DNA of 60,580 nucleotides from an uncultured Rhodospirillales bacterium (GTDB lineage Bacteria > Pseudomonadota > Alphaproteobacteria > Azospirillales > Azospirillaceae): contig CAIYNU010000046.1 in the NCBI GenBank assembly GCA_903927615.1, positions 1 to 60,580 of the forward strand, read 5' to 3'. Under the pieces are notes generated by a model. The model saw only the letters and a list, made by a program, of their open reading frames with translations, was not told where the DNA came from and searched no databases. This document shows positions 4,138 through 34,576 of this stretch, one piece after another; position 1 is the first letter of the stretch; every line of letters starts with the position of its first letter. Made by a program: the position numbers and the translations under genes.

Positions 4138-6063
4138 TCAAATATCGATCCGGATGCCGATCTCGACCACCTGATGGCCGGGAATGCGGTAGTAGTCGCT
4201 GACGTCCGCGACATTGTGGGCCATAAAGGCAAACAACCATTCCGACAGCCCGCTGAACGCCGGGTTATCGTCAGACGCCACCACCCGTTCGTGGCCGACG
4301 AAGTAGCTGACGTCGTCAGGATCCAGATCGAGCTTGAGCACCTCTGCGACACACCGGCGGACCACCACCGGAAGGTTCGGCGTCTGCATGAAGCCATAGT
4401 GGGCGGTCACCCGCCATAGCCCGTCGCCCAAAGCCACCGCGCTGTAGCGTTCCCGCGACGGCACCCGGGGAATCTCATGTCCGGCAATGGTCAGGATGAT
4501 CACATGCTGGTCCAGCACTTGATTGTGCTTGACGTGGTGCTGCATGACTTCGGGCACGTCGGCGGCGGTCCGGGTCAAAAACACCCCGACCCCCGGAGTC
4601 CGGATGATGCCGCCCGCGGCCAGACCCTCCAGGAAAACCGCAACCGGTTCGGTCATCGCGGCCACACGGTCATGCAGGTAGCAACTGCCGCGCTCCCATA
4701 ACCGCATCAACAGGAACACCACAACGCCGGCGGCCAATGGCAGCCAGCCTCCCTGGGGCAGCTTGAACAGGTTCGACACGAAAAAGCCAAGGTCGATGGC
4801 GGCAAAACCAATGGCCAAGGGCAGAACCGCGGCCCGCGGCCAGCCCCAGACCTGACGCATGGCCACCGCCAGCAACAGCGTCGTGATCAGCATGGTGCCG
4901 GACACCGCAATGCCGTACGCGGCGGCCATGTCGTCGGAACTCTTGAAGACCAGCACCACGCCCAGGGCGAACACCATCAAGCCGTAATTGATCACCGGCA
5001 GATAGATCTGGCCGTAGCCCTCGGCCGAGGTCTGAACAATCTTCATCCGCGGCCAAAGCCCCATGGCGACAGCCTGCCGGGTCAGGGTAAAGACCCCCGA
5101 GATCAGAGATTGCGAGGCGATCACCGTGGCCACGGTGGCCAGAACCACCATCGGGAGTTGAAGCGCGTCGGGCGCCAACCGGAAGAACGGATTGCCGATG
5201 GCTCCGGGTTCGGCCAGCATCACCGCCGCCTGCCCGGCATAGTTCAGCAGCAGCGCCGGCAGAACCACCAGAAACCACGTCAAGCGAATCGAGCGCCGCC
5301 CGACATGCCCCATGTCGGCGTACAGCGCCTCGCCCCCGGTGAGCGCCAGAAACACCGCGCCAAAGACCAGAAACGCCAGCCAGCCGTCACGCCCCACCAG
5401 TGCCAGCGCCCACTCCGGATCCAGCGCCGACAGCACTTGAGGGGCGCGCAGAATCCCGCCGATGCCGAGAATCGCGATCACCCCGAACCACACGAGCATC
5501 ACCGGTCCGAACCACCGGCCGATCACCGCGGTGCCGCGGCACTGGACCAGGAACAACGCGATCAGGATGGTCACGGTGATCGGCTTGACCCACGGCGTGA
5601 ATCCGGCCCCCACCACCTCCAGGCCCTCGACGGCACTCAGTACCGAAATCGCCGGCGTGATCACGCCATCGCCATAAAGCAAGGTCGCGCCGAAGATGCC
5701 GATGGCGATCAGCCACCGGCGCTGCACGGTTCCGGCGGCGCTCCAGGGCCGGACCAAAGCCAGTAACGCCAGGATGCCGCCCTCGCCATGATTGTCGGCG
5801 CGCATCACCAGCAGCACATACTTGACCGCGATCACCAGCAGCAGGGACCACACAATCAGGGACAAAATCCCCAACACCGGGACCGGATCGGCCCCCAGCG
5901 GGCCGCCGCCGCCGGCGGTCTCGGCCGCCACCTTGAAGGCGTACAGCGGACTGGTGCCGATGTCGCCATAGACGATCCCCAGCGCGGCGACGCCGGCCAC
6001 CACCAGCGATCCGGAGCCGGCGCGCCCCGCCTCGTCTCCCAAATTTTTGGTCTCGACGGACAT
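4138..6063 (-). CDS. kup: Kup/HAK-family low-affinity potassium transporter
   Basis: A 641-residue membrane protein, close to the usual size of Kup (about 620-630). The N-terminus carries the family signature GIVYGDIGTSPLYAFK, followed by about twelve membrane helices (residues 15-430) and a soluble C-terminal domain containing FLTRTAADVPEVMQHHVKHN, which is typical of the family. Kup proteins import potassium, probably with protons, across the inner membrane. ATG at 6063 was chosen because a GGGGGG purine run lies just upstream and translation then starts as MSVETKN. An in-frame extension to 6204 is low in family similarity. The gene is monocistronic and converges with the histidine kinase gene to its left. 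Confidence 0.95.
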   Translation of the reverse strand: MSVETKNLGDEAGRAGSGSLVVAGVAALGIVYGDIGTSPLYAFKVAAETAGGGGPLGADPVPVLGILSLIVWSLLLVIAVKYVLLVMRADNHGEGGILALLALVRPWSAAGTVQRRWLIAIGIFGATLLYGDGVITPAISVLSAVEGLEVVGAGFTPWVKPITVTILIALFLVQCRGTAVIGRWFGPVMLVWFGVIAILGIGGILRAPQVLSALDPEWALALVGRDGWLAFLVFGAVFLALTGGEALYADMGHVGRRSIRLTWFLVVLPALLLNYAGQAAVMLAEPGAIGNPFFRLAPDALQLPMVVLATVATVIASQSLISGVFTLTRQAVAMGLWPRMKIVQTSAEGYGQIYLPVINYGLMVFALGVVLVFKSSDDMAAAYGIAVSGTMLITTLLLAVAMRQVWGWPRAAVLPLAIGFAAIDLGFFVSNLFKLPQGGWLPLAAGVVVFLLMRLWERGSCYLHDRVAAMTEPVAVFLEGLAAGGIIRTPGVGVFLTRTAADVPEVMQHHVKHNQVLDQHVIILTIAGHEIPRVPSRERYSAVALGDGLWRVTAHYGFMQTPNLPVVVRRCVAEVLKLDLDPDDVSYFVGHERVVASDDNPAFSGLSEWLFAFMAHNVADVSDYYRIPGHQVVEIGIRIDI

Positions 6064-6354
6064 CTCGCCCCCCTGTTCCGGCAGCCTCTTGGCCCCAGCG
6101 TCGCCGAAACCGCCGGGTCGACGCAAGGAGATGTTTTGCCTAACGGTTTTGGCCGGAATCGTTGGCGACGATGGCCGGAATCGGGCGGCCGGGCTTGGGG
6201 GCACGGCACCGACATCTCAACAAGACATTAATAGTCTTTAATCGGGGTATTTTTTACTATTTCGCAGTTGCGAAATGGCAACATTGACATCAATGATAAC
6301 CCCATTTACGGTCGCGCCGCTAGCATCAGACAATATATGTCAAAGAGAACCAAG

Positions 6355-7251: not shown

Positions 7252-10200
7252 GTGGTGAATCAGGTCAGCGCGCCCCAGGGTTATACCATCTCCGACCTTC
7301 TGTATCGGGATAACAGCTTGATCCTCTGCCGGGGGATCCGGACCGCCGACGGCCTGCCGGTTATTTTTCGGATTCCCTGCGGGGAACCGCCGGCAGCAGG
7401 CGAGACGGAGCACTTGCGCCGTGACTTCGACATTACGCGCCGGCTTGACGGGGCGGTGGCCCTGAAACCCCAGGCACTGGTGACCTGGGATTGCCATCAG
7501 GCCCTGATCGCCGAAGATTTCGGGGGCGAACCGCTCTGTGACAGGCTCGGTGGACCGATGGCGCTGGCGACTTTCTTTGAAATCGCCATCGGCCTGTCCA
7601 CCGCCGTCTCGGAACTCCACCGGCAGGGCTTCATACACCGGAACCTGTCGCCCTGGAGCATCCTGGTTCATCCCGTCACCGGCGACGTCCGGATGATCGG
7701 CTTCGGGCTGGCCTTGGAACTGCCGAAAGGGCCGCCGAGCCTGGCCCAGCCAGGACTCATCGAAGGCACGCTGGCCTACATGGCGCCCGAGCAAACCGGA
7801 CGAACCAACCGGGCCATCGACCAGCGCAGCGATCTTTATGCGCTTGGAATCATCTTTTACGAAATGCTGACCGGGACATTGCCGTTTAGCGGTCATGACG
7901 CCCTGGAATGGGTTCACTGTCACCTGGCACATCAACCATTGGCACCCAAGACCGTCATTCCGGCATTGCCCGAGATGCTCTCGCGGCTGGTGCTCAAGTT
8001 ACTCGCCAAGCCGGCAGAAGACCGCTATCAGAGCGGGCGGGGGCTCGTGGTGGACCTCGAGCGGTGCCATGACCGCTGGCAGCGTGCCTGCAACGACGGT
8101 TTCACCTTGGGCGCCCGGGATGTCTCCGAACGATTCCAGTGGCCCCAACAACCATACGGGCGTGACGCCCAGTTCGCCCGGTTAAGGGCTGCCTTTGACC
8201 GGGTGACGGCGACCGGGGGCGCCGAACTGGTGCTGGTTTCGGGGATGTCGGGAATCGGCAAGTCGACCCTGGTCAACGAGTTGCGCCAGCCCACCCTCGA
8301 GGCCCGCGGCTCGTTCCTGGTCGGCAAATTCCAAGCCCGGCTTCAGGCCGTGCCGCCTTACGCCACCCTGGCCCAGGGGTTCCAGCCCCGGGTCCAGGAA
8401 ATTTTGGGCGAGGGCGAGGAGCGGATCGCAGTCTGGCGAGGCCGGTTGCTGGAGGCGCTGGGCCCACACGGCCAGTTGCTGACCGATGTCATCCCGCAAC
8501 TCAAGCACATCATCGGCGAGCCGCCGCCCCTGCCCGAACTGCCTGCCGCCGATGCCCAATGCCGGTTGATCGCGGTATTCCGGCGCTTTGTCGGGGTGTT
8601 CGCCACCGCCCGGCATCCGCTCGTGCTGTTTTTCGACGATCTGCACTGGGCCGATGCGTCCAACCTGATCCTGCTCCAGGACCTGCTGCTCGGTCCGGCG
8701 CCCGGCCCGCTGCTGCTGATCGGCGCCTATCGCGACGCCGAAGTCGGCCCGGACCATCCGCTGACCACGTGGCTGGCCACCGCCCAGACCCGGGGAGCGA
8801 CGGTCAGCGAAATCAGGTTGGCACCGCTCACCCCGGCCCAGGTGACGGCGTTTCTCGCCGATACCCTCCACCGGAGCCATCCTTTCGTGGCCCCGCTGGG
8901 CCGCCTGATTTATACCCGGACCGGCGGCAATCCCTTGTTCATCACCCAACTTTTGGCTGAGTGGAACCGGGAACAGTTGATCCGGTTCGACGGCAGCGGC
9001 GGCGGCTGGAGCTGGAACCTGGCCCGGATCGAGGCCGAACACTTTACCGGCGATGTCGCCGATTTGCTGACCGCCAGAATTCGACGCCTGCCGGCGGTGA
9101 CGCGAACGCTGCTGATCAATACCGCCTGCCTTGGCCACGCCGCCGACCTCCCGATCCTGGCGGTCATTCATGGCCGGGAACCTGAGCAAACCGCCGCTGA
9201 TCTGGCACCGGCCGTCCATGCCGGTCTGCTGATCTGCACCGGCCACCGGTATCGTTTTGCCCACGACAGAGTGGACGAAGCGGCCTATGCCCTGATCCCG
9301 GAAGACCGGCGCGCCGCCCGGCATCTGGCTTTGGGCCGGTTGCTGCTGGCCCGATGGGCCGCTGACCCCGACGCCGGTTCGCTTTTCGCGGCAGCCACCC
9401 AGGTCAATCACTGCCTGGATCTGGTCACCGACCCCGACGAACGGCGGCGGCTGGCTGAACTCAACCTCGCCGCGGGTCAAAGGGCCAAGGCCGCCGGCAG
9501 TTACGACGCGGCGGCCGCTTACCTGGCGGCCGGGGTCCGGCTGGTGGCGCCCGACGGCCCGACCGCCACGGATCGGCTGGTCTGGACCCTCCACCTGGAG
9601 CGCGCCCACTGCGACTACCTGCGGGGCGCCGTCGATGACGCCCTGACCCAACTCGATACCCTGTTGACCCGGTCCGGCCCGGCGCTCGACCGGGCCCGGG
9701 TCTACCGCATCCGGATCGCCCTGCTGACCACCCGGGGCGACATGGAGCGGGCGATCGAAGACGGCCTCGCCAGTCTGCGACCCTTCGGGATCATACTGCC
9801 GGCCAGCCCCAGCCGCGAACAGGTGGAGGAGGCCATTGCCGCGGTCTGGACCCACCTGGGCGACCGGCCCATTGAGGCGCTGATCGAGCTGCCGCCCATG
9901 GTCTCGGAGGACATGCGCATGGCCATGAGCCTGCTGGCCGATCTCGGCACACCGGCGATTTTCGCCCGCCCGACGCTACTGCCGATGACGCTGGCCCGAA
10001 TGGTCGACATCACCGTGTGTCACGGCACCACCGAGGCCTCGGTGTGGGCTTACCTCTGGTTCGGCGCCACCCTGGTTCAGCGCGCATTCGGTCGTATCCG
10101 CGACGGTTACCGCTTCGGCAAGCTCGCTTGGGACCTGATGGCGCGAAAGCCCCAGCATGAGCTGGAGGCCAAAGTCAATCTGGCCTTCGGCGACCTGCTG

Positions 10201-12786
10201 CACTTCTACGTCCACCCGGTTCGTGAGGGCCGGGCCTACATCATGACCGCCTTCCGGGCCGCGACCCAGATGGGCGACCTGCCGTGGGCCTGTTATAGCT
10301 GCAACCACCTTGTCACCAATATGTTGTCGTGCGCCGATCCGCTTGATCAGGTCTGGGAGGAGTCCGAGCGGTGTCTTGACTTCGTGCGCCGGGCCGGCGA
10401 TCCCAACATCGTCGACATCATCGTCAGCCAACAGCGATTTATCCTGAATCTCCGTGGTCTGACCACCACCCTGTCTCGTTTCGACGGGCCGGCCTTCGAC
10501 CAGGACCAGTTTGAAGCCCGCATCCAGTCCAGCCAGATGCCCCTGATGGTCTGCTGGTACTATATCCTTAAACTCCAGGCCCGGTTCCTCACCGGCGACT
10601 TGGACCAGGCCCTGATCGCGGCCGGGCGGGCCGGCGCGCTGATTCAGGCCAACGGCCCGGATATCCAGGGGATGGACTACGACTTCTTCGCGGCGTTGGC
10701 CAAGGCCGGCGGGTATCGCCCGGCGGCCGGACCCGAGACCACAAGTCCGGGTGTCCTGGCCGAAATCGACGGCCACCTGAAATTACTGCAAGGGTGGGCC
10801 GAAAACTGCCCCGCCAATTTCGAAACGCGCGCCGCGCTGGTGGCGGCCGAGCGGGCCCGGATCACCGGCCACGAGTTGGACGCCCAACGCCTCTACGAAC
10901 ACGCCATTCACAGTGCCCGGGACAATGGCTTCGTCCATTTCGAGGCCATGGCCAGCGAACTGGCCGCCCGGTATTACCGGGACCGCGGTTTCGAGTTGAT
11001 CGCCGAGGCCTACCTGCGCCAAGCGCACACCGGATACCGCCGCTGGGGCGCTGCCGGCAAATGCCGGCTGCTGGAACTCCAGGCGCCGCGGCTGCTGACC
11101 GCGCCGGTGTCCCCGGCTTCGGCCAGCCTTGCCGCTTCGGCCGACGGACTGGATCTGTTATCGGTGATCAAGGCCTCCCAAAGCATTTCGGCGGAACTGG
11201 TGCCGGCGCGACTCCAGGAAACCCTGCTGCGCATCGCCGTGGAACAGGCCGGCGCCCAGCGGGGCGTCCTGATGCTGGCCGAAGACCATGGTCTGGTGAT
11301 CCGGGCCATCGCCGAGACCCTGGCCGGTCTGATCAAGGTGACGATCACCCGGGTGACCATCGACCCGGGGGCTTCCACCGGTGACACCTTGCTGCCGCTC
11401 TCGGTGCTGAACGCTGTTCGTCGCACCCAGGAAGCGGTGGTCCTGGCGGCCGCCGACACCGATAGCCTGACCGCCATGGACCCCTATGTGACGCTCCGGC
11501 GCCCGCGATCGCTGTTGTGTCTGCCGATTCTCCGGAAAGGTAAGCTGGTGGGGGTGCTGTATCTGGAGAACGCGCTGCTGGCCGGCGCTTTCACCGGACG
11601 CACGCTTGTGGCGCTGGAACTGCTGACGGCACAAGCGGCGATCACCCTGGAGACCGCCACGGCCTATGCCGAACGCGAGCGGGCCGAGGCGGCACTCCGT
11701 GACCAGATCGAATTCATCCGGCGGTTGCTCGAAACCATCCCGGCGCCGGTCTATTACAAGGACGAGCATGGGCGTTATGGCGGCTGTAACCTCGCGTTCG
11801 AGCACTATGTCGGAAGACGCCAGGCCGAGCTGATCGGTAAGACCGCCGAGGCGGCGTGGCCCAAAGACCTGGCCAATCTCTATCAGCAAGCCGACCAAGC
11901 CCTGTTTCGCAACCCGGGCACCCAGGTTTACGAGACGACGTTCCTGCACGCCGATGGTCGGCGCCATGATGTGGTGCTCCATAAAGCCTCACTGGCCCGA
12001 AGCGACGGCAGCGTCAGTGGTCTGGTCGGCGTCATCTGGGACATCAGCGAGCGCACCGAGGCCGCCCGGGCACTGGCCCAGGCCAAGGAGGCGGCGGAAG
12101 CCGCGAGCGCCGCCAAATCGCGCTTCCTGGCCGCGGTCGGCCACGATCTGCGCCAGCCGTTTCAAGCCATTCAGCTTTACCACCATTTGCTGATGCGTCG
12201 CCTGACCGCCCCGCCCCTGAGCGACCTCGGCACCAGTCTGGGCGAGGCGATCGGGGTGGCCAGCGGGTTGCTCGATACCCTGCTTGAGGTTGCGACGTTG
12301 GATAGCGGCGCCATTCGGTGCCAGGTGATCGATTTTCCGTTGGGGCCGTTGATGGAACGTCTGGCGCGGCAGTTTGCCGACCAAGCCGCCGCCAAAGGCC
12401 TGGAATTGCGCCTGGTCCCAACCCCGTTGCGCATTCGCAGCGATCCCGACCTGCTGGCGCGGGTGCTGCATAATCTGTTAGTCAACGCCATCGGCTATAC
12501 CCAGCGGGGCCGGCTGTTGCTGGGCTGCCGGCGGTGCGGCGGCGAGGTGCGCATCGAAGTCTGGGACACCGGCATCGGCATTCCCAGTGAAAAACTGGAT
12601 GTGGTGTTCGAAGACTTTTTCCAGCTTGGCAATCCCGAGCGACAAAGCGCCAAGGGGTTCGGCCTCGGACTCGCGATCGCCCGCCGCACCGCCCTCTTGC
12701 TGGGCCATGATCTTCTGGTTCGATCCTGGCCAAACCGCGGCTCGGTGTTCGCCGTTAAGGTCCCGATCGCCAATTCCTCACCGTAA
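7252..12786 (+). CDS. Multidomain protein: degenerate Ser/Thr kinase, AAA-type ATPase, helical repeats, GAF, PAS, histidine kinase
   Basis: The product is 1844 residues from GTG at 7252. Residues 1-275 have the Ser/Thr kinase fold, recognisable from YMAPEQTGRTNRAID and SDLYALGIIFYEMLTG. An AAA-type ATPase follows with Walker A (GMSGIGKST, about residue 333) and Walker B (LVLFFDDLHWAD, about 460). Helical TPR-like repeats run to about 1290, then GAF (1300-1470), PAS (1485-1605), a HisKA box (FLAAVGHDLRQPFQ, His1631) and an HATPase domain with DTGIGIPSEK and GFGLGLAIARR. The order matches the known trifunctional kinase/ATPase/histidine-kinase family of cyanobacteria and proteobacteria. The kinase catalytic loop reads HRNLSP (Asn131 for Asp), DFG is replaced by GFG (Gly150), and the usual VAIK lysine position reads VIFRIP. 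The head is therefore probably a pseudokinase. Targets unknown; no response regulator is adjacent. Confidence 0.93.
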   Translation: MVNQVSAPQGYTISDLLYRDNSLILCRGIRTADGLPVIFRIPCGEPPAAGETEHLRRDFDITRRLDGAVALKPQALVTWDCHQALIAEDFGGEPLCDRLGGPMALATFFEIAIGLSTAVSELHRQGFIHRNLSPWSILVHPVTGDVRMIGFGLALELPKGPPSLAQPGLIEGTLAYMAPEQTGRTNRAIDQRSDLYALGIIFYEMLTGTLPFSGHDALEWVHCHLAHQPLAPKTVIPALPEMLSRLVLKLLAKPAEDRYQSGRGLVVDLERCHDRWQRACNDGFTLGARDVSERFQWPQQPYGRDAQFARLRAAFDRVTATGGAELVLVSGMSGIGKSTLVNELRQPTLEARGSFLVGKFQARLQAVPPYATLAQGFQPRVQEILGEGEERIAVWRGRLLEALGPHGQLLTDVIPQLKHIIGEPPPLPELPAADAQCRLIAVFRRFVGVFATARHPLVLFFDDLHWADASNLILLQDLLLGPAPGPLLLIGAYRDAEVGPDHPLTTWLATAQTRGATVSEIRLAPLTPAQVTAFLADTLHRSHPFVAPLGRLIYTRTGGNPLFITQLLAEWNREQLIRFDGSGGGWSWNLARIEAEHFTGDVADLLTARIRRLPAVTRTLLINTACLGHAADLPILAVIHGREPEQTAADLAPAVHAGLLICTGHRYRFAHDRVDEAAYALIPEDRRAARHLALGRLLLARWAADPDAGSLFAAATQVNHCLDLVTDPDERRRLAELNLAAGQRAKAAGSYDAAAAYLAAGVRLVAPDGPTATDRLVWTLHLERAHCDYLRGAVDDALTQLDTLLTRSGPALDRARVYRIRIALLTTRGDMERAIEDGLASLRPFGIILPASPSREQVEEAIAAVWTHLGDRPIEALIELPPMVSEDMRMAMSLLADLGTPAIFARPTLLPMTLARMVDITVCHGTTEASVWAYLWFGATLVQRAFGRIRDGYRFGKLAWDLMARKPQHELEAKVNLAFGDLLHFYVHPVREGRAYIMTAFRAATQMGDLPWACYSCNHLVTNMLSCADPLDQVWEESERCLDFVRRAGDPNIVDIIVSQQRFILNLRGLTTTLSRFDGPAFDQDQFEARIQSSQMPLMVCWYYILKLQARFLTGDLDQALIAAGRAGALIQANGPDIQGMDYDFFAALAKAGGYRPAAGPETTSPGVLAEIDGHLKLLQGWAENCPANFETRAALVAAERARITGHELDAQRLYEHAIHSARDNGFVHFEAMASELAARYYRDRGFELIAEAYLRQAHTGYRRWGAAGKCRLLELQAPRLLTAPVSPASASLAASADGLDLLSVIKASQSISAELVPARLQETLLRIAVEQAGAQRGVLMLAEDHGLVIRAIAETLAGLIKVTITRVTIDPGASTGDTLLPLSVLNAVRRTQEAVVLAAADTDSLTAMDPYVTLRRPRSLLCLPILRKGKLVGVLYLENALLAGAFTGRTLVALELLTAQAAITLETATAYAERERAEAALRDQIEFIRRLLETIPAPVYYKDEHGRYGGCNLAFEHYVGRRQAELIGKTAEAAWPKDLANLYQQADQALFRNPGTQVYETTFLHADGRRHDVVLHKASLARSDGSVSGLVGVIWDISERTEAARALAQAKEAAEAASAAKSRFLAAVGHDLRQPFQAIQLYHHLLMRRLTAPPLSDLGTSLGEAIGVASGLLDTLLEVATLDSGAIRCQVIDFPLGPLMERLARQFADQAAAKGLELRLVPTPLRIRSDPDLLARVLHNLLVNAIGYTQRGRLLLGCRRCGGEVRIEVWDTGIGIPSEKLDVVFEDFFQLGNPERQSAKGFGLGLAIARRTALLLGHDLLVRSWPNRGSVFAVKVPIANSSP

Positions 12787-12964: not shown

Positions 12965-13477
12965 TTACGACTTGGGCGCCGCCGGGATCGCTTTAAGCGC
13001 CGCCAGTGCGGCGTCAACCTTCGCCAGCGCGTCCTGATGCTCGCCATGGCGAAGGGCGGTCCGGGCCGCTTTAACCTCGCGGGTAATGCCGGTGATCTTG
13101 ACATGCTCGGCCCGGGGCGAAGCCTTGCGCACGGCGTTAAGCTCCGTCACGGTGTGGCTGAGGACCGACCGGGCCTCGCCGTATTTCTTGTCCGCCAGCG
13201 CCGCGCGGGCCTGATCCAACGCATTGGCAATACCGGCAAGGCTGGGCGCCGCTTTGGCGGTCGCGGTGTGCGCCGGAGCAACCGCGACGGGATGGGCCGG
13301 AACCGCTGCGCTGGCCTTCACGGATGGCGGAGCCGCGGGAACGACGGCCGGGGCAGCCGTGGGAGCCGCAACGGGAGCGGCAACCGGGACATCGGCGGCG
13401 AAGGCAGCCGATGCGCCGGCCAGGATGGCGGCGACGGCCAGGGCTCCAATCAGGCGGGATGGCAGGGTGGTGGTCAT
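12965..13477 (-). CDS. Small secreted Ala/Pro-rich protein with helical C-terminal half
   Basis: The product is 170 residues. It begins with a clear Sec signal peptide (MTTTLPSRLIGALAVAAILAG, cleavage likely after AFAA). A low-complexity Ala/Pro/Val stretch follows (about residues 28-75), then an amphipathic helical region rich in Ala, Lys and Leu (residues 80-165: LDQARAALADKKYGEARSVL, AARTALRHGEHQDALAKVDA) that looks like degenerate helical hairpins. I recognise no family; a periplasmic structural or binding role is a guess. It is divergent from the adjacent response regulator gene, with about 150 bases between starts, so it may be a target of that two-component system. A good GGAG-type site lies just before the ATG. 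Confidence 0.7.
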   Translation of the reverse strand: MTTTLPSRLIGALAVAAILAGASAAFAADVPVAAPVAAPTAAPAVVPAAPPSVKASAAVPAHPVAVAPAHTATAKAAPSLAGIANALDQARAALADKKYGEARSVLSHTVTELNAVRKASPRAEHVKITGITREVKAARTALRHGEHQDALAKVDAALAALKAIPAAPKS

Positions 13478-13631
13478 GTCGGGACTCCTCTATGTCGATG
13501 CTGGGCTTGCTGCCGACGGCCGGCGGTGCTCTTGTCGAATACAATAACCGACGCCCCATGAACGGTCCTTGGCCGGCGGATGAATTCCCGTTCATGTGTG
13601 AAGGTCAGCCGGCCCGGGCGTGGAGACTCCC

Positions 13632-14312
13632 ATGAAGCTGCTGCTGATCGAAGACAACCGACAGGTTTCGGATTTCGTGCTGAAGGGCCTGACCGAGGCC
13701 GGCCATGTCGCCGACCACGCCGAAACCGGCCGCGACGGCCTGTTCCTGGCGGTCAGTGAGCGTTACGACGCCATGATCCTTGATCGTCTGCTGCCCGGCG
13801 GCGTCGACGGCCTGGGCATCCTCGACGCCCTGCGCCGGCAGGGCAATCACACCCCGGTGCTGATTCTCAGCGCCCTCAGCGACGTGGAGGAACGCATCCG
13901 CGGCCTCAAGGCCGGGGGCGACGACTACCTGGCCAAGCCGTTCGTGTTCGGCGAACTCCTGGCCCGACTCGAGGCGTTGGTCCGTCGCGGCCACAGCCCG
14001 GGCACCGTCACCTCGCTGGCCGTGGGCGACTTGACCCTTGACCGGCTCTCGCGCCGGGTGACGCGGGGCGAGCGGCGCATCGACCTCCAGCCGCGCGAGT
14101 TCCAGATTCTGGACTATCTGATGTGTCATTCGGGACAGGTGGTGACCCGCACCATGCTGCTGGAAAGCGTTTGGGATTACCATTTCGATCCCCAAACCAA
14201 CGTCGTCGATGTCCATATCGGCAAACTTCGCCGCAAGATTGACGGTGACTCGCCGCACCCGTTGATCCGGACCGTCCGTAACGCCGGGTACATGATCCAT
14301 GCCGGCGACTAG
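13632..14312 (+). CDS. OmpR/PhoB-family response regulator
   Basis: The product is 226 residues. The receiver domain spans residues 1-115: acidic pocket EDN (7-9), phosphoacceptor Asp51 in MILDRLLPGG, and the Lys of LAKPF. The DNA-binding winged helix spans about 130-224 (LQPREFQILDYLM, NVVDVHIGKLRRKID, IRTVRNAGYMI). ATG at 13632 is preferred over an in-frame GTG at 13620 because MKLLLIEDN is the normal N-terminus. The partner kinase gene begins 94 bases downstream. The closest named groups are the QseB/CzcR/TctD-like regulators; the signal cannot be read from sequence. Confidence 0.94.
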   Translation: MKLLLIEDNRQVSDFVLKGLTEAGHVADHAETGRDGLFLAVSERYDAMILDRLLPGGVDGLGILDALRRQGNHTPVLILSALSDVEERIRGLKAGGDDYLAKPFVFGELLARLEALVRRGHSPGTVTSLAVGDLTLDRLSRRVTRGERRIDLQPREFQILDYLMCHSGQVVTRTMLLESVWDYHFDPQTNVVDVHIGKLRRKIDGDSPHPLIRTVRNAGYMIHAGD

Positions 14313-14405: not shown

Positions 14406-15845
14406 GTGATCGGAAACCGCTCTCGCCTGCCGCCAACCGGATGGTGGCGCTCGACATCGCTCCGCCTCGCGACGGGGTTCGCGGTCATCTTCGCGCTCGC
14501 CGCCCTGGTGCCGATCGGCGTGCTGTGGTGGGCGACCGCCGGGACGCTCAGCGCCGGCATCGACGCCCAAATCCGCGCCGATGCCACCGCCCTGCATCGT
14601 CTGTATCGCCAGGGCGGACTTTCAGACCTGCGGAGCGGCGTGACCGCCCGAATCGCTGCAACGCGCCACGAGGGAACACTCTATCTGATCGCCGACGCCC
14701 GGTTGACCCCCATCGCCGGCACTCTCCAGACCTGGCCGGCGGGGCTTGGTCGCGCCACCGGCTGGCATGATCTCGACCTGGACCTGGGCCACGGTGACGG
14801 CATCGCCCACGTCCGGGTCTATCAGATGCGATTGAGCGAGGCCGTTCACCTGTTGGTCGGCCGCGACATCGGCGAGTTGACCCGCCTGCGCACGCTGATT
14901 CTGGACGCGGTGGCGTGGTCGGTCCTGGTGGCCATGACCCTGGCGGCGGTGCTGGGTCTGCTGTTCCGCCGGGTGTTCCTGGCCAGCCTGCGCTCGGTCC
15001 GGGCGACCGCCGATGCCATCGCACGCGGTGATATCAGCCGTCGGCTGCCGTTGGGCGGCAGCGCCGATGAATTCGATCTGCTGGCCGGAACCCTTAACGA
15101 CCTGTTCGCCCGTATCGAGGACCTGATTGCCGAGGTCCGCAACGTGTCGAACGCCATCGCCCACGACCTGCGGACGCCGCTGGCCGAATTGCGCGGCCGG
15201 CTCGAAGCCCTTCAGCGCGGCCCGGCCGACGCCCTCGAGGTGGCCGAGGGCATCGATGCCGCCATTGCCGACGTGGACCGGTTGAACGCGATCTTCACGG
15301 CGCTGCTGCGGTTGGCCGACATCGATTCCGGAATGCGACGCTCGGCCTTCGCCCCGGTGGATCTCGGCACCGTGGCCACCGACGTCACTGACCTCTATTC
15401 CGCGCTGGCCGAAGCCAAGGACATCACGCTGACCACCGCCATCGGGTCAAACCTGTGGGTGTGGGGCGACCGCGACCTGCTGGCCCAGGCGGCCAGCAAC
15501 CTGCTGGACAACGCCATCAAGTTCACCCCCGCCGGCGGTCAGATCGCCCTTTCGGCCTCAGCCGCCATCGGGGGCGGCATCGAACTGCGCATCACCGACA
15601 GTGGCCCGGGCATCCCGGATACCGACCGCGTCAGGGCCACCCGACGCTTCTTCCGCGGCGACCGCAGCCGCCACACCCCCGGCGTCGGCCTGGGTCTCAG
15701 CCTGGTCCAGGCGGTGGCCGACCTGCATTATGCCACCCTGACCCTGTCCGACCATCGGTCAGGCCTTTCCGGCCAGCCGCCGGGGCTTTCGGTCTGTCTG
15801 GCGTTACCGGAAGGCCCGATCACCTCCGCCGCACGCGACCGATAA
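14406..15845 (+). CDS. HAMP-domain sensor histidine kinase, partner of the upstream regulator
   Basis: The product is 479 residues from GTG at 14406. A first membrane helix lies at about residues 20-42 and a periplasmic domain of about 115 residues follows. A second helix (about 163-187, LDAVAWSVLVAMTLAAVLGLL) leads to HAMP (188-240), HisKA with NAIAHDLRTPLAELRG (His253), and HATPase with N box NLLDNAIKFTP, G1 DSGPGIP and G2 GVGLGLSLV. The layout is that of EnvZ/QseC-like kinases. Its 3' end overlaps the convergent rsmB gene by 26 bases (15820-15845), so the two transcripts must be complementary there. Confidence 0.93.
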   Translation: MIGNRSRLPPTGWWRSTSLRLATGFAVIFALAALVPIGVLWWATAGTLSAGIDAQIRADATALHRLYRQGGLSDLRSGVTARIAATRHEGTLYLIADARLTPIAGTLQTWPAGLGRATGWHDLDLDLGHGDGIAHVRVYQMRLSEAVHLLVGRDIGELTRLRTLILDAVAWSVLVAMTLAAVLGLLFRRVFLASLRSVRATADAIARGDISRRLPLGGSADEFDLLAGTLNDLFARIEDLIAEVRNVSNAIAHDLRTPLAELRGRLEALQRGPADALEVAEGIDAAIADVDRLNAIFTALLRLADIDSGMRRSAFAPVDLGTVATDVTDLYSALAEAKDITLTTAIGSNLWVWGDRDLLAQAASNLLDNAIKFTPAGGQIALSASAAIGGGIELRITDSGPGIPDTDRVRATRRFFRGDRSRHTPGVGLGLSLVQAVADLHYATLTLSDHRSGLSGQPPGLSVCLALPEGPITSAARDR

Positions 15846-25266: not shown

Positions 25267-27222
25267 TTACCGTGCCGCCGGCCCGAGCCGCTGCAAGGCC
25301 GCCCGGGCCAGAGCATTGCCCTGGGCCGCGGCCAGCCGATAAAACCGCACCGCCGCAGCATCGTCCCGGGCCACGCCACGGCCATGTTCCAGCAGGACCG
25401 CCAGATAGGCCTGCCCCAGCGGATTCCCCTGATCGGCGGCCAACCGGTAAAGGCGGGCCGCCTCGGCCTCGTCCTTGTCCACGCCGCGGCCGGTCTCCAG
25501 CAACAGGCCGAGCGTCACCTGGGCGTCGGCGTGCCCCTGGTCGGCCGCCTGACGGTAAAACCGGGCGGCGTCGGCCAGATTGCGATCCACGCCCCGACCA
25601 TTTTCCAGCGCCACCCCAAGATTGTACTGGGCCGCAGCCAGCCCTTGTTCGGCCGCCAGCCGGTACCAATGCGCCGATTCCGCTTCGTTCTTCGGCGCTC
25701 CCCGGCCCTCTTCCAGCATGGCGCCCAGGCCGTTCCGGGCCTCTGCCCGGCCCTGGTCCGCGGCCAGGCGGTACAGCCGGACCGCTTCCGCTTCATCCCG
25801 TTCGACTCCCCGGCCGCTTTCCAACATCCGCGCCAGCGCGGTTTCGGCCTCGGCGTTGCCCTGATCGGCGGCCCGGCGGTACCAGCGCGCCGCCTCGACG
25901 TCGTTCCGGCCGACGCCACGCCCGCTTTCCAGCAGCGTGCCCAGCAGGGTTTGCCCTGGGGCATGGCCCTGATCGGCCGCCAGCCGGGCATAACGGGCCG
26001 CTTCGGCTTCGTTGGCGGGAACGCCCCGGCCGGCAGCCAGCAGCGCGGCCAGGGCCGCCTGGGCTCCGGCATCGCCGCGATCGGCAGCCAGCCGGGTGAC
26101 CCGCGCCGTCTCGGCCTCGTCCTGCCCCCCGCCCTGGCCCGGCGACGCCACCGGCCCGGCGGCGACCGGGACCGGTAGCGCCGCCACGGCGGCCAGCGTC
26201 GGCGGCGAGATCATCCGACCGTTGGACGCGGTCTCCTGGTCAGAGGCGGGATCCGCCGCCCGGGGCCGCGCCCGGACCTTGGCCAGCGCGACGAACCGGC
26301 CCCGGGGATAGGTCTCGAGATAGGCCTGGTAATCGGCCGGACTGCCGCTGGACTTGATGGCATCCCAAAACGCCAGTTCGGCGGCGTCGGTGCCGCCGGC
26401 ATCTGCGGGCTGAACCGCCGACGACGCTGCCGCCGCCTGGGCCAGGTAGATCGGATCGCCGCCCAACGAGCCATAGACGAAGGGTTGCTGGCGTCCGCCG
26501 GTGGCTTCGACCACACTGTCGCGGACTTTGCCGAACATGCGCTCCAGCGACAGGCCGGGGGTCGCCAGATGCTGGAGCAACGCCGCGGTATAGGGGCTAT
26601 GACTGCCGTTGCCATCCTCGGCGATGGAGTCGGCCTTGGTGGCGAAGGCAATCAGGGTATCCGCCTCGATATCGTCGATTCGCGCAAAGCCGCGCCCGAC
26701 CAGAGCCGACCGGGTCCCCAGACTGCGGGCCATTTGAGCCTGGAAGGGGTTGTCGCGGCAGGCGTCGAGGATGACCACCCTCAGACGTCGCGCCTGGCGG
26801 GCCTCGCCGAGAATTTCTTCGACCTCGATCGCTTCCCGTCGCAGGTCGGTCTCCCGGATCAGCCGGGCATTGACCGGCAGCAAATAGTTGTGGCCGGCAA
26901 GCTGAAGTCCATGGCCGGCATAGAATACCAGCGCCATTTCGGCCCCGTCCGCGGCCTGGCCGAAATCGTGGATGCGGTCCAGCATGGCCTCGATGGACAG
27001 GTCGTAGCCTTCGATCACCGCAAAACCGAGTCCCTTCAGCGCCCCAGCCATGGCCCGGGCATCATTGACCGGATTCGGCAGCTTCGGCGCCTGCTGGTAT
27101 GCGCCGTTGCCGATCACCAGCGCGATTCGGGCGGCCGGAGCCGCCGCATCGGCCGTCGCGGACGCGGCCATCAACCCCAGCGCCCCGATCACCGCAACCA
27201 TTCTCGTCCACCAGCCGCTCAT
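25267..27222 (-). CDS. Secreted caspase-family (C14) protein with Sel1 repeats
   Basis: The product is 651 residues. A signal peptide (about 1-26, MVAVIGALGLMAASATADA) precedes a caspase p20-like domain that keeps the catalytic dyad: His104 in YAGHGLQLAGHNYLLPVNA and Cys155 in VILDACRDNPFQ. A short repeat comes next (FWDAIKSSGSPADYQAYLET) of the type also seen in the kinase-FGE protein at the left edge. About eight Sel1-like repeats of 36 residues follow (AEAARLYRLAADQG, GRGVDKDE), a helical solenoid for protein binding. The ATG at 27222 follows GAGGGGGC; a frame extending upstream to 27858 antisense to hup is spurious. Probably a periplasmic cysteine protease or inactive-scaffold relative; target unknown. 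Confidence 0.9.
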   Translation of the reverse strand: MSGWWTRMVAVIGALGLMAASATADAAAPAARIALVIGNGAYQQAPKLPNPVNDARAMAGALKGLGFAVIEGYDLSIEAMLDRIHDFGQAADGAEMALVFYAGHGLQLAGHNYLLPVNARLIRETDLRREAIEVEEILGEARQARRLRVVILDACRDNPFQAQMARSLGTRSALVGRGFARIDDIEADTLIAFATKADSIAEDGNGSHSPYTAALLQHLATPGLSLERMFGKVRDSVVEATGGRQQPFVYGSLGGDPIYLAQAAAASSAVQPADAGGTDAAELAFWDAIKSSGSPADYQAYLETYPRGRFVALAKVRARPRAADPASDQETASNGRMISPPTLAAVAALPVPVAAGPVASPGQGGGQDEAETARVTRLAADRGDAGAQAALAALLAAGRGVPANEAEAARYARLAADQGHAPGQTLLGTLLESGRGVGRNDVEAARWYRRAADQGNAEAETALARMLESGRGVERDEAEAVRLYRLAADQGRAEARNGLGAMLEEGRGAPKNEAESAHWYRLAAEQGLAAAQYNLGVALENGRGVDRNLADAARFYRQAADQGHADAQVTLGLLLETGRGVDKDEAEAARLYRLAADQGNPLGQAYLAVLLEHGRGVARDDAAAVRFYRLAAAQGNALARAALQRLGPAAR

Positions 27223-27444
27223 GGCCCCCTCATCCTGTTTGCTCCTTCGACGGTCGGCCCCGAATATGCCGCTTGAGGCGCTCGGGTTGAAGGGAGCGAT
27301 GCCCACCCCCGCCCCGCCGCGTCTTGCCGGAAACATTCGCGGGCGAAACACTTGGTCACCCGCGAAGAACACTTGCATCATGGCATCGGCCCTGCCAGTA
27401 AGGCTCCCTGTGTGGAATCGGGCGCGATTACGGAGTGATTTACC

Positions 27445-27741
27445 ATGAACCAAGCCGATCTCATTGATGCCGTCACCAGTGCCAGCGGCCTGACCAAAGG
27501 CGACGCGGCACGAGTGATGCACGAACTGTTCCAAAAGATCACGACCGCGCTGAGCCACGGCGAAGAGGTTCGGATTACCGGCTTCGGCAGCTTCGCGGTG
27601 ACCGAGCGGGCCGCCCGCGAGGGTCGCAACCCCCGAACCGGCGAAGTCGTGCAGATTCCGGCCAGCAAGGCGGCCAAATTCAAACCCGCCAAGCAGTTGC
27701 GTGACACGCTGAACCCCGCCGGCAGCCCCGAAGAGGATTGA
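27445..27741 (+). CDS. hup: HU-family DNA-binding protein
   Basis: The product is 98 residues, slightly longer than the usual 90. It has the full HU fold: MNQADLIDAVTSASGLTKGD N-terminal helices, the VRITGFGSFAV turn, and a DNA-intercalating arm with RNPRTGEVVQIPASKAAKF. A short acidic tail (SPEED) extends the C-terminus. HU bends and compacts DNA. ATG at 27445 follows GGAGTGATTTACC. It is divergent from the caspase gene with 222 bases between starts and convergent with amrS. HU is favoured over IHF because of the arm sequence, but paralogue identity is not certain. Confidence 0.92.
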   Translation: MNQADLIDAVTSASGLTKGDAARVMHELFQKITTALSHGEEVRITGFGSFAVTERAAREGRNPRTGEVVQIPASKAAKFKPAKQLRDTLNPAGSPEED

Positions 27742-27775
27742 CGGAACACCGGGAGCACGGCTACCCCTACTCCCT

Positions 27776-27798
27776 GCGGGCGAGACGCCCGCGCTCCC
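27776..27798. repeat. Intergenic hairpin repeat, copy 2
   Basis: Same element as at 14369-14391: perfect 7-bp stem GCGGGCG/CGCCCGC with loop AGA and 22 identical bases. It lies between the convergent ends of hup and amrS, so it may serve as a bidirectional transcript end. Confidence 0.75.
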
Positions 27799-27838
27799 GG
27801 TCGCTTTCCTGCCCCGTCGTTTTCGTCGTCGGCGAAGA

Positions 27839-28930
27839 TCATTCCTGGCCAACGGCAAAGTCCCGCAGACGAACCGGCAGACGACGACCGCCCCAACGAC
27901 CGGGAGGATCAGTGAAGACGCCGGGAGTAACGGTACCGCAGATGCGGCAGCGGCCGTCCGGGGTCAGAGTCCAGTCGGTCAGGGTATAACCGCGCCGGCC
28001 GATCACCCGTTCGCCGCAACCGTGGCAATATGTGCTGCCGCGCCCGACATCATCGACGTTCCCCACATAAACATGACGCAAGCCATTGGCCCGAGCGATC
28101 TCCCGGGCCCGGATCAAGGTCAGGTGGGGCGTGCGGGGCTTGTCCAGCATCTTGTAATCGGGATGAAACGCGGTGAAATGGACCGGCACGTCGGGGCCGA
28201 GATGGTCCATGATCCAACGGCTTTCCGCCTCGATCTCATCGGCGCCGTCGTTTTCTCCGGGAATCAAAAGGGTGGTGATCTCGAACCAGACCGTCGTTTC
28301 GTGCTTGAGGTACACCAGCGTGTCCAGCACCGCGCCCAGTTGGGCGGTGGCCAGTACCCGGTAAAATCGCTCGGTAAAACCCTTGAGATCGACATTGGCC
28401 GCGTCCATGTGGCGATAAAAGGCGGCGCGCGGCGCCGGGCACATGTAACCGGCAGTGACGGCAACCGCCTTGATATCCCGGGCGCGACAGGCATCGGCGA
28501 CATCCATGGCATATTCCATGAATACCACCGGGTCATTGTAGGTAAAGGCAATGCTGCGGCATCCCAGGGCGGCGGCGGCAGCGGCGATTCGTTCCGGCGA
28601 AGCCTGGTCGGCCAGGGTATCGGTCGCCCGAGACTTGCTGATATCCCAATTCTGGCAGAACTTGCAGGTTAGATTACATCCTGCGGTACCAAACGACAGG
28701 ACCGGCGTTCCCGGTAAAAAATGATTCAGCGGCTTTTTCTCGATGGGATCGACGCAGAACCCGCTGGAGCGGCCGTAAGTGGTAAGAACGATGGCATCGT
28801 CGGCGCGCGCCCGCACGAAACACAAGCCCTGCTGGCCTTCCGCCAGCCGGCAATGACGAGGACACACGTCGCATTGGATACGACCGTCATCCAATGCATG
28901 CCAGTAGCTGGTTCGCAAGGCGTCGATCAT
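27839..28930 (-). CDS. amrS: AmmeMemoRadiSam system radical SAM enzyme AmrS
   Basis: The product is 363 residues. A Cys-rich N-terminus (CDVCPRHCRLAEGQQGLC) precedes the radical SAM cluster motif CNLTCKFCQNW (Cys85, Cys89, Cys92). Family motifs include CVDPIEKKPLNHFLPGTPVLSFG and FTYNDPVVFMEYAMD; a C-terminal CHGC...CRICG pair may bind a second metal. AmrS is part of the conserved but biochemically obscure AmmeMemoRadiSam set, in which it occurs with Memo (AmrB) and AMMECR1 (AmrA) proteins. Here a fused AmrB-AmrA gene is divergent, with 176 bases between starts. ATG at 28930 starts at a typical N-terminus. Confidence 0.93.
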   Translation of the reverse strand: MIDALRTSYWHALDDGRIQCDVCPRHCRLAEGQQGLCFVRARADDAIVLTTYGRSSGFCVDPIEKKPLNHFLPGTPVLSFGTAGCNLTCKFCQNWDISKSRATDTLADQASPERIAAAAAALGCRSIAFTYNDPVVFMEYAMDVADACRARDIKAVAVTAGYMCPAPRAAFYRHMDAANVDLKGFTERFYRVLATAQLGAVLDTLVYLKHETTVWFEITTLLIPGENDGADEIEAESRWIMDHLGPDVPVHFTAFHPDYKMLDKPRTPHLTLIRAREIARANGLRHVYVGNVDDVGRGSTYCHGCGERVIGRRGYTLTDWTLTPDGRCRICGTVTPGVFTDPPGRWGGRRLPVRLRDFAVGQE

Positions 28931-31564: not shown

Positions 31565-34500
31565 CTACCGGGCGGCGCGGAACCGCTCCAACTCGGCCGT
31601 GGTGTCCTGGATGACCGCCGTCAGGGCCGGAACCACCGCCGCGGCCGCGTCGACATCGGAACACATCTGAAGTGTGTGAGCCAAAGTCGCCGCCCGAATG
31701 CCTCCCACATTGAGAAACATGCCTTTTGCGGTATGAGCGATCCGATGGATCTGGGACAGGCTGCGTTGATCCAGCGCAACCTCGAGCGCCGATACTTGTT
31801 CCTGACTGCACCGGGTGAGTTCCGCGATCAGGCCTCCGAAGTCCGGTGCCGTCATCACGGCCCTGATCGATGCCAGCCGATGGCTGTCCACCAGCAGAGG
31901 CGGCTGTTGTTCGGACTCCTCCAGGACGCCCATGACCGCGGTGGCCGACGGCACCGTGGTCATGGGGGCCAAGTGCGCCAGGGTGGCCAGGTGTGCCAGG
32001 GTGGAGTCGACTTTACTCCATTCGATGGGTTTGGTCAGAATATCCGTCAACCCCGCGTCCATGTAGGCGACCCGGTGTTCGGCCACGGCGTCTGCGGTCA
32101 GAGCGACGATCGGCACTTGGGAGTACGGTCGTTCCAGGGTCCGGATGCGCCGGGTGGCCTCGGCGCCATCCATCACCGGCATCTGGAGGTCCATCAAAAT
32201 CACGTCGAACCGGTGTTGCGCCGCCGCCTCGCACGCTTCAGCGCCGTTCTCGACCGCCGTCACCCGATGGTGACGCTGCTCCAGGCCGACCTTGACGATC
32301 ATCCGGTTGATCGGGTTGTCTTCGGCCAACAGGATGGACAAGGGCGGAACGACAACGGCAAGGGGCGGTTGGTCGGTGATGTCCTCCGGCCGGGCCGGGT
32401 CGACCAGACAGGTGAAGCGGAACACCGACCCCCGCCCCCGTTGGCTGGTAACGCCGATATCACCGCCCATCAACGCCACCAGGCGTTTGCAAATGGCCAG
32501 GCCGAGCCCCGTCCCGCCGTACTTCCGGGTCGCTCCCGCGTCGGTCTGGGAAAACGGCAGGAACAACCGCGCCATGTCCGCTTCCGAAATGCCGATGCCG
32601 GTGTCCTCGACTTCGAACATCAGGCGCAGGCGGCCTTCGGCATCCTGACGGCGCAACCGAACGGTGATGGCTCCGGCCCGGGTAAACTTGACCGCATTGG
32701 CGATCAGGTTTCCCAGGACTTGTTTGATCCTGGTGGAATCGCCCCAAACGGCAACCGCCGCCAAGCCGCCGGCATCCAGCGTCAGCGAGCAGATGTTCTC
32801 CTCTGCCTTGGGCCGGAACAGACGCACGGTTTCCGCGGCCAGCGACACGGCATCGAAGGCGATGCGGGCGAGGTCCAGTCGCTCGGCATCGATTTTAGAG
32901 TAATCCAGGATATCATTGAGCACCGTCAGTAAGTTTTGCGCCGATGATCGCATGGTATCGATATAAAGCCGTTGATCTTTGTTCAGCGGCGTTTGGTACA
33001 GAAAGTCAGCCATGCCGATCACGCCGGTCATCGGGGTCCGGAGTTCATGGCTCATCATCGCCAGGAACGCCGTCTTGGCACGATGTGCGGCTTCGGCGGT
33101 CTGTCGCGCCTCGATCAAATGCTGTTCCGCGACCTTGCGATCGGTGATGTCGACGCCACCCCCAACATAGCCCAGGAATCCCCCCGCGGCATCGGTGCGT
33201 GGAACGCCCTGGTCATAGACCCAGCGGTATTCGCCGTCATGGCGCCGAATCCGGAACTCCAGGGCGAATGGCTGCCGGGTTGCAAAGGCCTTGAGGAAAG
33301 CCTCCTGGCAGGATTGCCGATCATCGGGATGAAGACTATCCATCCAGCCATTGTTCATAGCTTGCGCCATAGGAAGTCCGGTGAAGTCTGTCCACTTTTG
33401 GTTGATAAACACGCAACAACCGTCGGGATCGGTCAGCCACATCAACACCGGGGCGCTATTGGCCAGATTGCGGAACCGACTCTCGCTTTCAAGGAGAGCC
33501 CGCTCGGCCTGGTGTCTCGCGCCCAGCACGGCGTTAAACCGTAGGGCCAGCGTTCTGATTTCCGCCGGACCTTGGACGGCCAGGGGCTCACCGGCCCAGC
33601 CATCCGCGGCTCGCTCCAGGATGGCCGCCATTTTCCGCAGCGGACGATCGATGCCGCGCGCCAGCAGGAGGGCGAGGCCCGCGACCACCAGGACCAGGAG
33701 CACCGATCCCATCCCGACCAGCAGGAAAGCGCCGTTGGTCGCTTCGAAGGCGGCTTTCGGCGGAATGGCGACGATCACGTGCCAGTGGGCGGCAGGGATG
33801 CCGGCAAAGGCGTAAATCTCGTCACTGTTTCCCACGCCTCCCCATCCGACTCCTTCGGTCTCCTCAAGCACCCGGGACAGCCGTTCGCTGCGCGTCAGAT
33901 TGCGACCCGCCCACGCTTCCCACTCGCTGGACCGAGCCATCACGGTGCCGTCGTCGTTTACAATGATAACTGTGCTACCTTGGGGAAGGCTGTCGCCCCG
34001 CTTCAAGGATTGAAAGTGATGGAGGTCGATGGGAAGAACCACCAGACCTCGAACGACGCCATTCACGCCCCGCAGCGGCACGCTTGCCACCGAAACCCAA
34101 GCCTGGGAAATCGGATCCACCACCGGGCTTCCGAAGATGACGGCGTCTTCGTCCTTGGCCGCGACCGCCCGGACGAACCACCGGGCGCCGGCCACGGACA
34201 GGTGCCGGACGGACGGCGGCTTCGGCGCCGCGGAACACAGGGTCTCGCCATCGAGCGTATCAATACCGATGTCGGTATAGCCGGCGTGACGATTGAGAAA
34301 GGTGACGATTTCCGGATCGCAGTGTTCGGGATCCAGCGTGCGGAACATCGGCCGCCGGGCCAACACCTTGAGGAGGGCCGCGGTGTCGCCCAAAAACTGA
34401 TCCGCGTTGTCCGCCACGACGCGCGCCGTCAACAGCGCCGATTGTTGAATGATCTCGATATTCTTCGCCTGGATCAGGGCCAGCGTCCCCGCCATCAGGC

Positions 34501-34576
34501 CAATCAGCGGGAGCATGGCGCACAACACGAGACCTGCAAGCCGTGCCCGAAGTGAATGGAGGGGAAGCAACCCCAT
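31565..34576 (-). CDS. Hybrid sensor histidine kinase with Cache, HAMP, PAS, receiver and Hpt domains
   Basis: The product is about 1003 residues. A first membrane helix (about 12-35) is followed by an extracytoplasmic Cache-type sensor (about 40-280), a second helix (LLVLVVAGLALLLARGI), HAMP, and a PAS domain with its PAC tail (EFRIRRHDGEYRWVYD). HisKA reads AFLAMMSHELRTPMTGVIG. HATPase has DTGIGISEAD and [13 protein letters not shown], the receiver has AEDN and VILMDLQMPVMDG, and a C-terminal Hpt domain carries HRIAHTAKGMFLNVGG. The full phosphorelay is thus within one chain, with the last output protein elsewhere. ATG at 34576 has an AAGGA site; a GTG at 34594 also fits the frame. It lies just downstream of a second hybrid kinase on the same strand. 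Confidence 0.93.
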   Translation of the reverse strand: MGLLPLHSLRARLAGLVLCAMLPLIGLMAGTLALIQAKNIEIIQQSALLTARVVADNADQFLGDTAALLKVLARRPMFRTLDPEHCDPEIVTFLNRHAGYTDIGIDTLDGETLCSAAPKPPSVRHLSVAGARWFVRAVAAKDEDAVIFGSPVVDPISQAWVSVASVPLRGVNGVVRGLVVLPIDLHHFQSLKRGDSLPQGSTVIIVNDDGTVMARSSEWEAWAGRNLTRSERLSRVLEETEGVGWGGVGNSDEIYAFAGIPAAHWHVIVAIPPKAAFEATNGAFLLVGMGSVLLVLVVAGLALLLARGIDRPLRKMAAILERAADGWAGEPLAVQGPAEIRTLALRFNAVLGARHQAERALLESESRFRNLANSAPVLMWLTDPDGCCVFINQKWTDFTGLPMAQAMNNGWMDSLHPDDRQSCQEAFLKAFATRQPFALEFRIRRHDGEYRWVYDQGVPRTDAAGGFLGYVGGGVDITDRKVAEQHLIEARQTAEAAHRAKTAFLAMMSHELRTPMTGVIGMADFLYQTPLNKDQRLYIDTMRSSAQNLLTVLNDILDYSKIDAERLDLARIAFDAVSLAAETVRLFRPKAEENICSLTLDAGGLAAVAVWGDSTRIKQVLGNLIANAVKFTRAGAITVRLRRQDAEGRLRLMFEVEDTGIGISEADMARLFLPFSQTDAGATRKYGGTGLGLAICKRLVALMGGDIGVTSQRGRGSVFRFTCLVDPARPEDITDQPPLAVVVPPLSILLAEDNPINRMIVKVGLEQRHHRVTAVENGAEACEAAAQHRFDVILMDLQMPVMDGAEATRRIRTLERPYSQVPIVALTADAVAEHRVAYMDAGLTDILTKPIEWSKVDSTLAHLATLAHLAPMTTVPSATAVMGVLEESEQQPPLLVDSHRLASIRAVMTAPDFGGLIAELTRCSQEQVSALEVALDQRSLSQIHRIAHTAKGMFLNVGGIRAATLAHTLQMCSDVDAAAAVVPALTAVIQDTTAELERFRAAR

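Follow-up and report, generated by a model that had tools for sequence, protein, structure and literature searches.

As described in the CP1 sections of O'Boyle et al. (2025, PMC12599244), the CP1 kinases are found mainly in cyanobacteria and proteobacteria, have no transmembrane regions, and comprise about 40% pseudokinases with varied lesions, all of which are joined to a COG3899 predicted ATPase. The protein analysed here, which is encoded in the window (the whole stretch of 60,580 nucleotides that was analysed), resembles these kinases in carrying GAF/FhlA or PAS domains beside its kinase fold, and probably also in the predicted ATPase joined to that fold (COG3899 in CP1, AAA_16 here), and it has the further CP1 traits of no evident transmembrane segment, the presence of GAF and PAS_4, and relatives in both cyanobacteria and proteobacteria (PMC12599244). 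It is a strongly degraded and new member of a kind already described. A literature search found no paper on the clade of catalytically dead heads considered below, PMC12599244 being the closest, and the CP1 sections of that paper single out neither the GFG lineage nor its transmitters. The window protein is unlike CP1 in general in that all three core residues, together with the asparagine of the catalytic loop, have been lost from its head.

The cyanobacterial dual Ser/Thr-His kinases of the cbSTKIII type, of which HstK is an example, provide a second comparison. These proteins likewise place a kinase domain, GAF and HisKA in one chain, and their “KD” catalytic loop is that of the intact relatives of the window protein, but they were kept in the survey that describes them as having catalytic motifs, which the window head does not have (PMC2176072). 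A listed example of the DLHK family has GFG and no VAIK lysine, like the relatives in the dead-head clade; DLHK kinases as described nevertheless retain the HRD aspartate, from which the window head differs in having Asn131 at this position, and they are most often joined to helicase or nuclease domains, unlike the window protein (PMC12599244). Human VRK3, which is inactive and in which ATP binding is absent, has lesions of the same kind as those of the window head (HRD to HGN and DFG to GFG) in a retained fold, but it keeps the beta-3 lysine and its domain context is different (PMC2639636); the likeness is one of convergence and not of membership.

The fusion gene lies on contig C46 of a genome of 4.57 Mb, and the open reading frame given for it in the initial annotation is right at both ends (GTG start, 1844 aa). 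Its features are collected in Table 1. The succession of Pkinase and AAA_16 in the Pfam results would correspond to the ATPase trait of CP1 if the AAA_16 domain is an ATPase of the COG3899 type, and the long region that follows the ATPase is presumably TPR-like. The ATPase and histidine kinase motifs, which had been judged intact from the sequence, are indeed all present (Walker A, Walker B, the H-box with His1631, and the N-, D- and G-boxes). No receiver domain was found by Pfam in the 1844 aa, and no transmembrane segment is evident over the same length, in which the highest 19-residue Kyte-Doolittle mean is 1.71. The histidine kinase part has its best NCBIfam match in the NahK/ErcS model NF041832 (E 1.1e-71), but it differs from NahK/ErcS in scoring below the curated cut-offs (241.8 of 400 bits for NF041832, 226.7 of 1500 bits for NF041831) and in having no receiver domain.

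Table 1. Features of the fusion gene and of two genes downstream of it (positions are those of the window).
Feature	Coordinates	Strand	Remarks
Fusion protein, 1844 aa	7252..12786	+	GTG start; pseudokinase head - AAA_16 ATPase - region without Pfam match - GAF - PAS - HisKA - HATPase_c
Protein-kinase-like head, residues 1-290	7252..8121	+	Pfam Pkinase 76-258, E 2.2e-19; AlphaFold2 pLDDT 92
Arg40 (CGG), VAIK lysine position, in VIFR	7369..7371	+	alignment
Asp58 (GAC), alpha-C glutamate position	7423..7425	+	alignment
Asn131 (AAC), HRD aspartate position	7642..7644	+	alignment
Ser136 (AGC), catalytic-loop asparagine position	7657..7659	+	alignment
Gly150 (GGC), DFG aspartate position	7699..7701	+	alignment
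AAA_16 ATPase, residues 300-490	8149..8721	+	Pfam, E 6.6e-36
Walker A, GMSGIGKST	8242..8268	+	motif present in ATPase
Walker B, LVLFFDDLHW	8620..8649	+	motif present in ATPase
Long region, residues 691-1310	9322..11181	+	no Pfam match; identity 72% to L080, 67% to L079
GAF domain, residues 1322-1466	11215..11649	+	Pfam
PAS domain (PAS_4), residues 1493-1602	11728..12057	+	Pfam
HisKA, residues 1621-1686	12112..12309	+	Pfam; H-box GHDLRQP, acceptor His1631; most like NahK/ErcS
HATPase_c, residues 1731-1840	12442..12771	+	Pfam; N, D and G boxes present
OmpR-type response regulator	13620..14312	+	also beside the fusion gene in L080 and L079; identity about 89-90%
HAMP-HisKA-HATPase sensor kinase	14406..15845	+	beside OmpR regulator; present in L089

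The alignment agrees with the initial annotation on each of the three lesions that it had reported in the head: the catalytic loop reads H129-R130-N131-L132-S133-P134 with Asn131 in place of the HRD aspartate, DFG is replaced by G150-F151-G152, and the VAIK lysine column is occupied by Arg40. Two further losses were found, that of the catalytic-loop asparagine (now Ser136) and that of the alpha-C glutamate (now Asp58), which makes the case slightly stronger than first described. By the sequence definition, which requires the loss of at least one of the VAIK lysine, the HRD aspartate and the DFG aspartate, the head is a pseudokinase with all three gone. A catalytic aspartate at a shifted position is unlikely, because neither motif contains an aspartate and the anchor residues are invariant (P134, P179, E180, D194, G199, R258) or nearly so (H129, F151) in a 26-row alignment; the aspartate nearest to GFG is Asp145, which precedes the predicted strand 146-148. 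Asn131 can be rejected as a single sequencing error, since the ortholog L079, from a different metagenome-assembled genome (MAG), has asparagine at the same position through a different codon (AAT as opposed to AAC). Decay of the G-loop was considered as a sign of a dead kinase and dropped: intact heads have no glycine there in 25 of 50 cases and one glycine in 24 of 50, so that a glycine-poor G-loop is uninformative, and the G-loop argument made for VRK3 does not carry over to the window head.

The head is nevertheless predicted to fold as a kinase. Its AlphaFold2 model is confident (pLDDT 92), and the closest solved structure is PknB (Z 30.9, rmsd 2.4 over 255 residues), with which nearby rows tie; VRK3 and CASK are absent among the 50 structural matches listed, which carries no weight against either. 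In a model of the head together with the ATPase, the packing between the two is not fixed (pTM 0.59).

Activity is not readable from such a sequence, because CASK, as described in PMC2639636 and PMC4718504, is active despite its GFG motif, having kept a VAIK-type lysine and HRD. The case of CASK, along with those of SelO and SidJ, which the CP1 paper cites as pseudokinases with other activities (PMC12599244), gives some weight to the possibility that the head still catalyses a reaction, as an atypical kinase or as a transferase of another type (AMPylase or glutamylase), with other residues substituting for the lost ones, and the poor G-loop, being found in intact heads also, is no argument against nucleotide binding. 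We nevertheless consider this unlikely, given that the lysine, the HRD aspartate, the catalytic-loop asparagine and the DFG aspartate have gone together, and that Arg27 in beta-2 is conserved at 85% or above in intact heads also and hence represents no special compensation. Phosphotransfer by the head is presumed to be absent. Another possibility, compatible with the pseudokinase reading, is that the head is an ATP sensor which binds nucleotide but transfers no phosphate. STRAD, which has neither the HRD nor the DFG aspartate and has an arginine in its beta-3 motif, binds ATP (PMC2639636), and Arg40 of the window head stands at the same place as that arginine; for DLHK proteins, models have led to a proposal of arginine-based ATP binding (PMC12599244). 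Against this, both the DFG aspartate and the catalytic-loop asparagine are missing from the head, and VRK3, its closest lesion match, does not bind ATP (PMC2639636). We regard the ATP-sensor reading as less likely than not.

The losses are not peculiar to the window protein. When the five catalytic positions (VAIK lysine, alpha-C glutamate, HRD aspartate, catalytic-loop asparagine, DFG aspartate) were read in 135 aligned heads, the commonest pattern was KEDND (n=63, 13 of these being remote outgroup kinases), followed by REDNG (n=26); the window protein is the sole RDNSG, and its two nearest relatives are RDNTG (L079) and RDDSG (L080). All three core residues are lost in only four heads, namely the window protein, L079, L075 and L077. 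The last two are very divergent dead heads (HGALSP and HGALQP), found as second copies in two family genomes that also carry a REDNG copy. The HRD aspartate is lost in 16 of the 135 heads, and it must have been lost repeatedly, because 10 of the 16 retain both the lysine and the DFG aspartate. A different lesion type is seen in seven relatives from Neptunomonas and Neptuniibacter (L091-L094, L097-L099), which have HKQ for HKD and keep the VAIK lysine and the DFG aspartate. The combined loss of the lysine and the DFG aspartate is common to the window protein and relatives in Azospirillum, Rhizobium, Microvirga, Paraburkholderia, Cupriavidus and Pseudomonas, and GFG heads among the named relatives include those of Microvirga, Rhizobium, Paraburkholderia, Cupriavidus, Bradyrhizobium, Pseudomonas, Mesorhizobium and Pantoea plasmids, while a Caballeronia relative has GLG. 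The idea that the window protein alone lost its residues is accordingly rejected, and the loss, being common to a set of relatives, is more than chance.

Among 82 family genomes, 45 match the window protein at E 1e-40, and of the 62 heads examined 25 are canonical, 2 are gapped and 35 have lost at least one core residue, this last count including a degenerate head, L033, with aspartate in the DFG column. Evenly drawn samples searched at E 1e-80 gave matches in 6 of 385 genomes of the class and in 36 of 398 of the phylum, the two samples overlapping and each including the genome of the window. The 35 heads taken from these samples, a set that omits the headless L141, the window's family and rows without a retained locus, comprise 21 canonical heads, 12 with a core residue lost and 2 gapped. 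Relatives occur in Alpha-, Beta- and Gammaproteobacteria and also in Nostoc and Leptolyngbya.

We regard one old loss as the likely origin of the main dead lineage, with some separate losses in addition. When 32 chosen rows were analysed with three outgroup kinases, a single clade united the 16 dead heads on head plus ATPase (SH-aLRT 99), on the kinase with the motif columns blanked (83/94), and on the ATPase alone, which does not contain the trait (97/96). In the 58-row family tree two changes, one of them L033, account for the DFG-lost label. A single loss was not obtained in every tree, however: the 76-row tree shows no single dead clade under its root, which lies among long-branched dead heads where the outgroup joins (L075/L077, L095/L100, L152/L166), and there the DFG-loss label takes six changes, five of them forced by starred branches. 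L070/L087, L136 and L140 sit among intact heads in this tree and look like separate losses. The window trio, which consists of the window protein, L079 and L080, branches first in the dead clade as sister to the other 13 dead heads, many heads within the clade retaining the HRD aspartate. This aspartate is lost in the window protein and L079 and kept in L080; a single loss within the trio would fit the ATPase tree, in which the window protein and L079 are sisters (97/90), while in the kinase-only tree it is L080 that groups with the window protein (94/27). On the question raised in the initial annotation of whether the substitutions form a clade, it can thus be said that they do cluster, but in a broad group, and that only the loss of the HRD aspartate is local, to the window protein and L079.

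Two MAG contigs carry the nearest relatives, L080 and L079 (the same loci as L090 and L089 respectively), whose best segments over head and ATPase are 68% and 65% identical to the window protein. A frame slip between HisKA and HATPase_c at about 13415-13418 of L080 is either an assembly error or a real break. Rough dN/dS values (NG86), for which dS is high at 0.8 to 1.6, are 0.20 (C-lobe) and 0.40 (N-lobe) for the window protein against L080, and 0.16 (C-lobe) and 0.22 (N-lobe) against L079, and across the three ortholog pairs the C-lobe values are 0.16-0.21; by these estimates the head is under purifying selection. They bear on the possibility that constraint on the head has been relaxed and that the domain is a relic in decay. 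The N-lobes of the orthologs are 53-55% identical as compared with 69-74% for the C-lobes, which is slightly below the 57-58% that N-lobes average in pairs whose C-lobes are 60-75% identical, and the HRD aspartate was lost within the trio itself, both of which would suit a relic. The relation between N-lobe and C-lobe identity is nevertheless similar for dead and intact heads (50 of each), the C-lobe ratios are low even if rough, fold residues are retained, and dead heads are found across many genera, so that decay has very little probability. At 40 positions the same residue is conserved at 85% or above in dead and intact groups alike, and the window protein departs from these at E58 and D131 alone. 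A further 39 positions are conserved only in the dead group, which was chosen by Gly150 and the absence of Lys40 and in which the trio itself and numerous closely similar Azospirillum copies are counted; the window protein shares 31 of them, including Asp20, Pro73, Pro94, Arg147, Met177, Ser193, Leu195, Leu210 and Trp220, and departs at eight (G21, L61, W69, L109, L148, T149, R227, A262).

The initial annotation had proposed that the protein turned its own kinase into a pseudokinase. As far as can be judged from sequence, the pseudokinase is well supported, by the five lost positions, the predicted kinase fold, the purifying selection and the relatives that share the main losses, but the conversion is not the work of the window protein, since the substitutions cluster in a broad group. 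The reading that we regard as probable is that the head is a pseudokinase forming the N-terminal part of an input module, made up of the pseudokinase, the AAA_16 ATPase and the long region, which feeds the histidine kinase. The ATPase shows no decay beside the dead heads: among 76 rows, two of which have asparagine at the DFG position and were left uncounted, the Walker A lysine and both Walker B aspartates are retained in 31 of 31 rows with glycine and in 43 of 43 with aspartate at that position. The further proposal that the head is a sensor controlling the ATPase and the histidine kinase is plausible, and it fits this selective pattern of loss; most likely the domain would have been kept as a structural switch on both and not as an enzyme. 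Under the most likely mechanism, the dead kinase fold together with the long region 691-1310 would sense a partner or a conformational signal, the nucleotide state of the ATPase might store or amplify it, and the GAF, PAS and histidine kinase domains would turn it into phosphotransfer, presumably to a separate response regulator, since the fusion protein has no receiver domain. Dead heads beside an ATPase with its Walker residues kept make it possible to study in bacteria how a pseudokinase acts on a neighbouring ATPase and histidine kinase.

An alternative is that the dead head pairs with an intact paralog of this type, here the KEDND protein of 2573 aa on contig C77, and acts on it allosterically, and both head types do occur in the window genome and in both ortholog genomes. 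An intact head is nonetheless present in only 9 of the 33 family genomes with a core-loss head and was not seen in the other 24, although paralogs may be missed when the window protein is the query at E 1e-40. Obligate pairing is not supported by these counts, and although other Ser/Thr kinases could serve as partners in place of a paralog, we hold the paralog explanation to be decidedly unlikely.

The transmitters behind the dead heads are of several kinds, namely NahK-like with HDLRQP in the trio, HEV-x-QP in L156-L160, L163, L168 and L177, and HisKA_2 in L170, L172 and L174. Since transmitters vary behind intact heads also, this variation does not establish the dead head as a module. It is possible, and we put it forward tentatively, that the dead kinase and the ATPase constitute an old input module in which the kinase died once in the main lineage before it spread through alpha-, beta- and gammaproteobacteria, that the dead head was kept while the transmitter changed among three kinds (NahK-like HisKA, HEV-x-QP HisKA and HisKA_2), and that the fold would now be solely an allosteric switch on the ATPase. 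The record name “trifunctional serine/threonine-protein kinase/ATP-binding protein/sensor histidine kinase”, which is attached to this layout with a GFG head (L156, L160, L163), claims an activity that GFG heads probably lack. Of nine annotated plasmid loci with dead heads, whose gene tables are incomplete, five have a LuxR-type response regulator at a distance of no more than 1 kb (L157, L163, L164, L166, L168); none was seen within that distance at L156, L158, L160 and L169, and the unannotated L159 is outside the nine.

At the window locus, an upstream neighbour at 4141-6216, presumably KUP-like, is matched in both orthologs. On the downstream side, no counterpart of the sensor kinase was found in L080 over the 2.6 kb beyond the regulator, so that the OmpR-type regulator, which stays beside the fusion gene there, may serve the fusion protein; this is a mild hint of a functional link. 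The L080 regulator itself is at 15024-15713, and a permease gene and an MlaD-type gene come after it. Between the fusion gene and the regulator of the window, 12965-13477 on the minus strand holds a convergent ORF of 170 aa with a signal-like start, an Ala/Pro-rich part and no Pfam match, and similar ORFs adjoin the fusion gene in both orthologs. Elsewhere in the window, 202-2193 on the plus strand encodes a 663-aa protein with a C-terminal FGE-sulfatase domain, 25267-27858 on the minus strand an 863-aa protein in which a caspase-like (Peptidase_C14) domain is followed by Sel1 repeats, and 31565-38522 on the minus strand two adjacent, large histidine kinases of the hybrid type, both of which contain dCache, PAS, HisKA, HATPase_c, receiver and Hpt domains.
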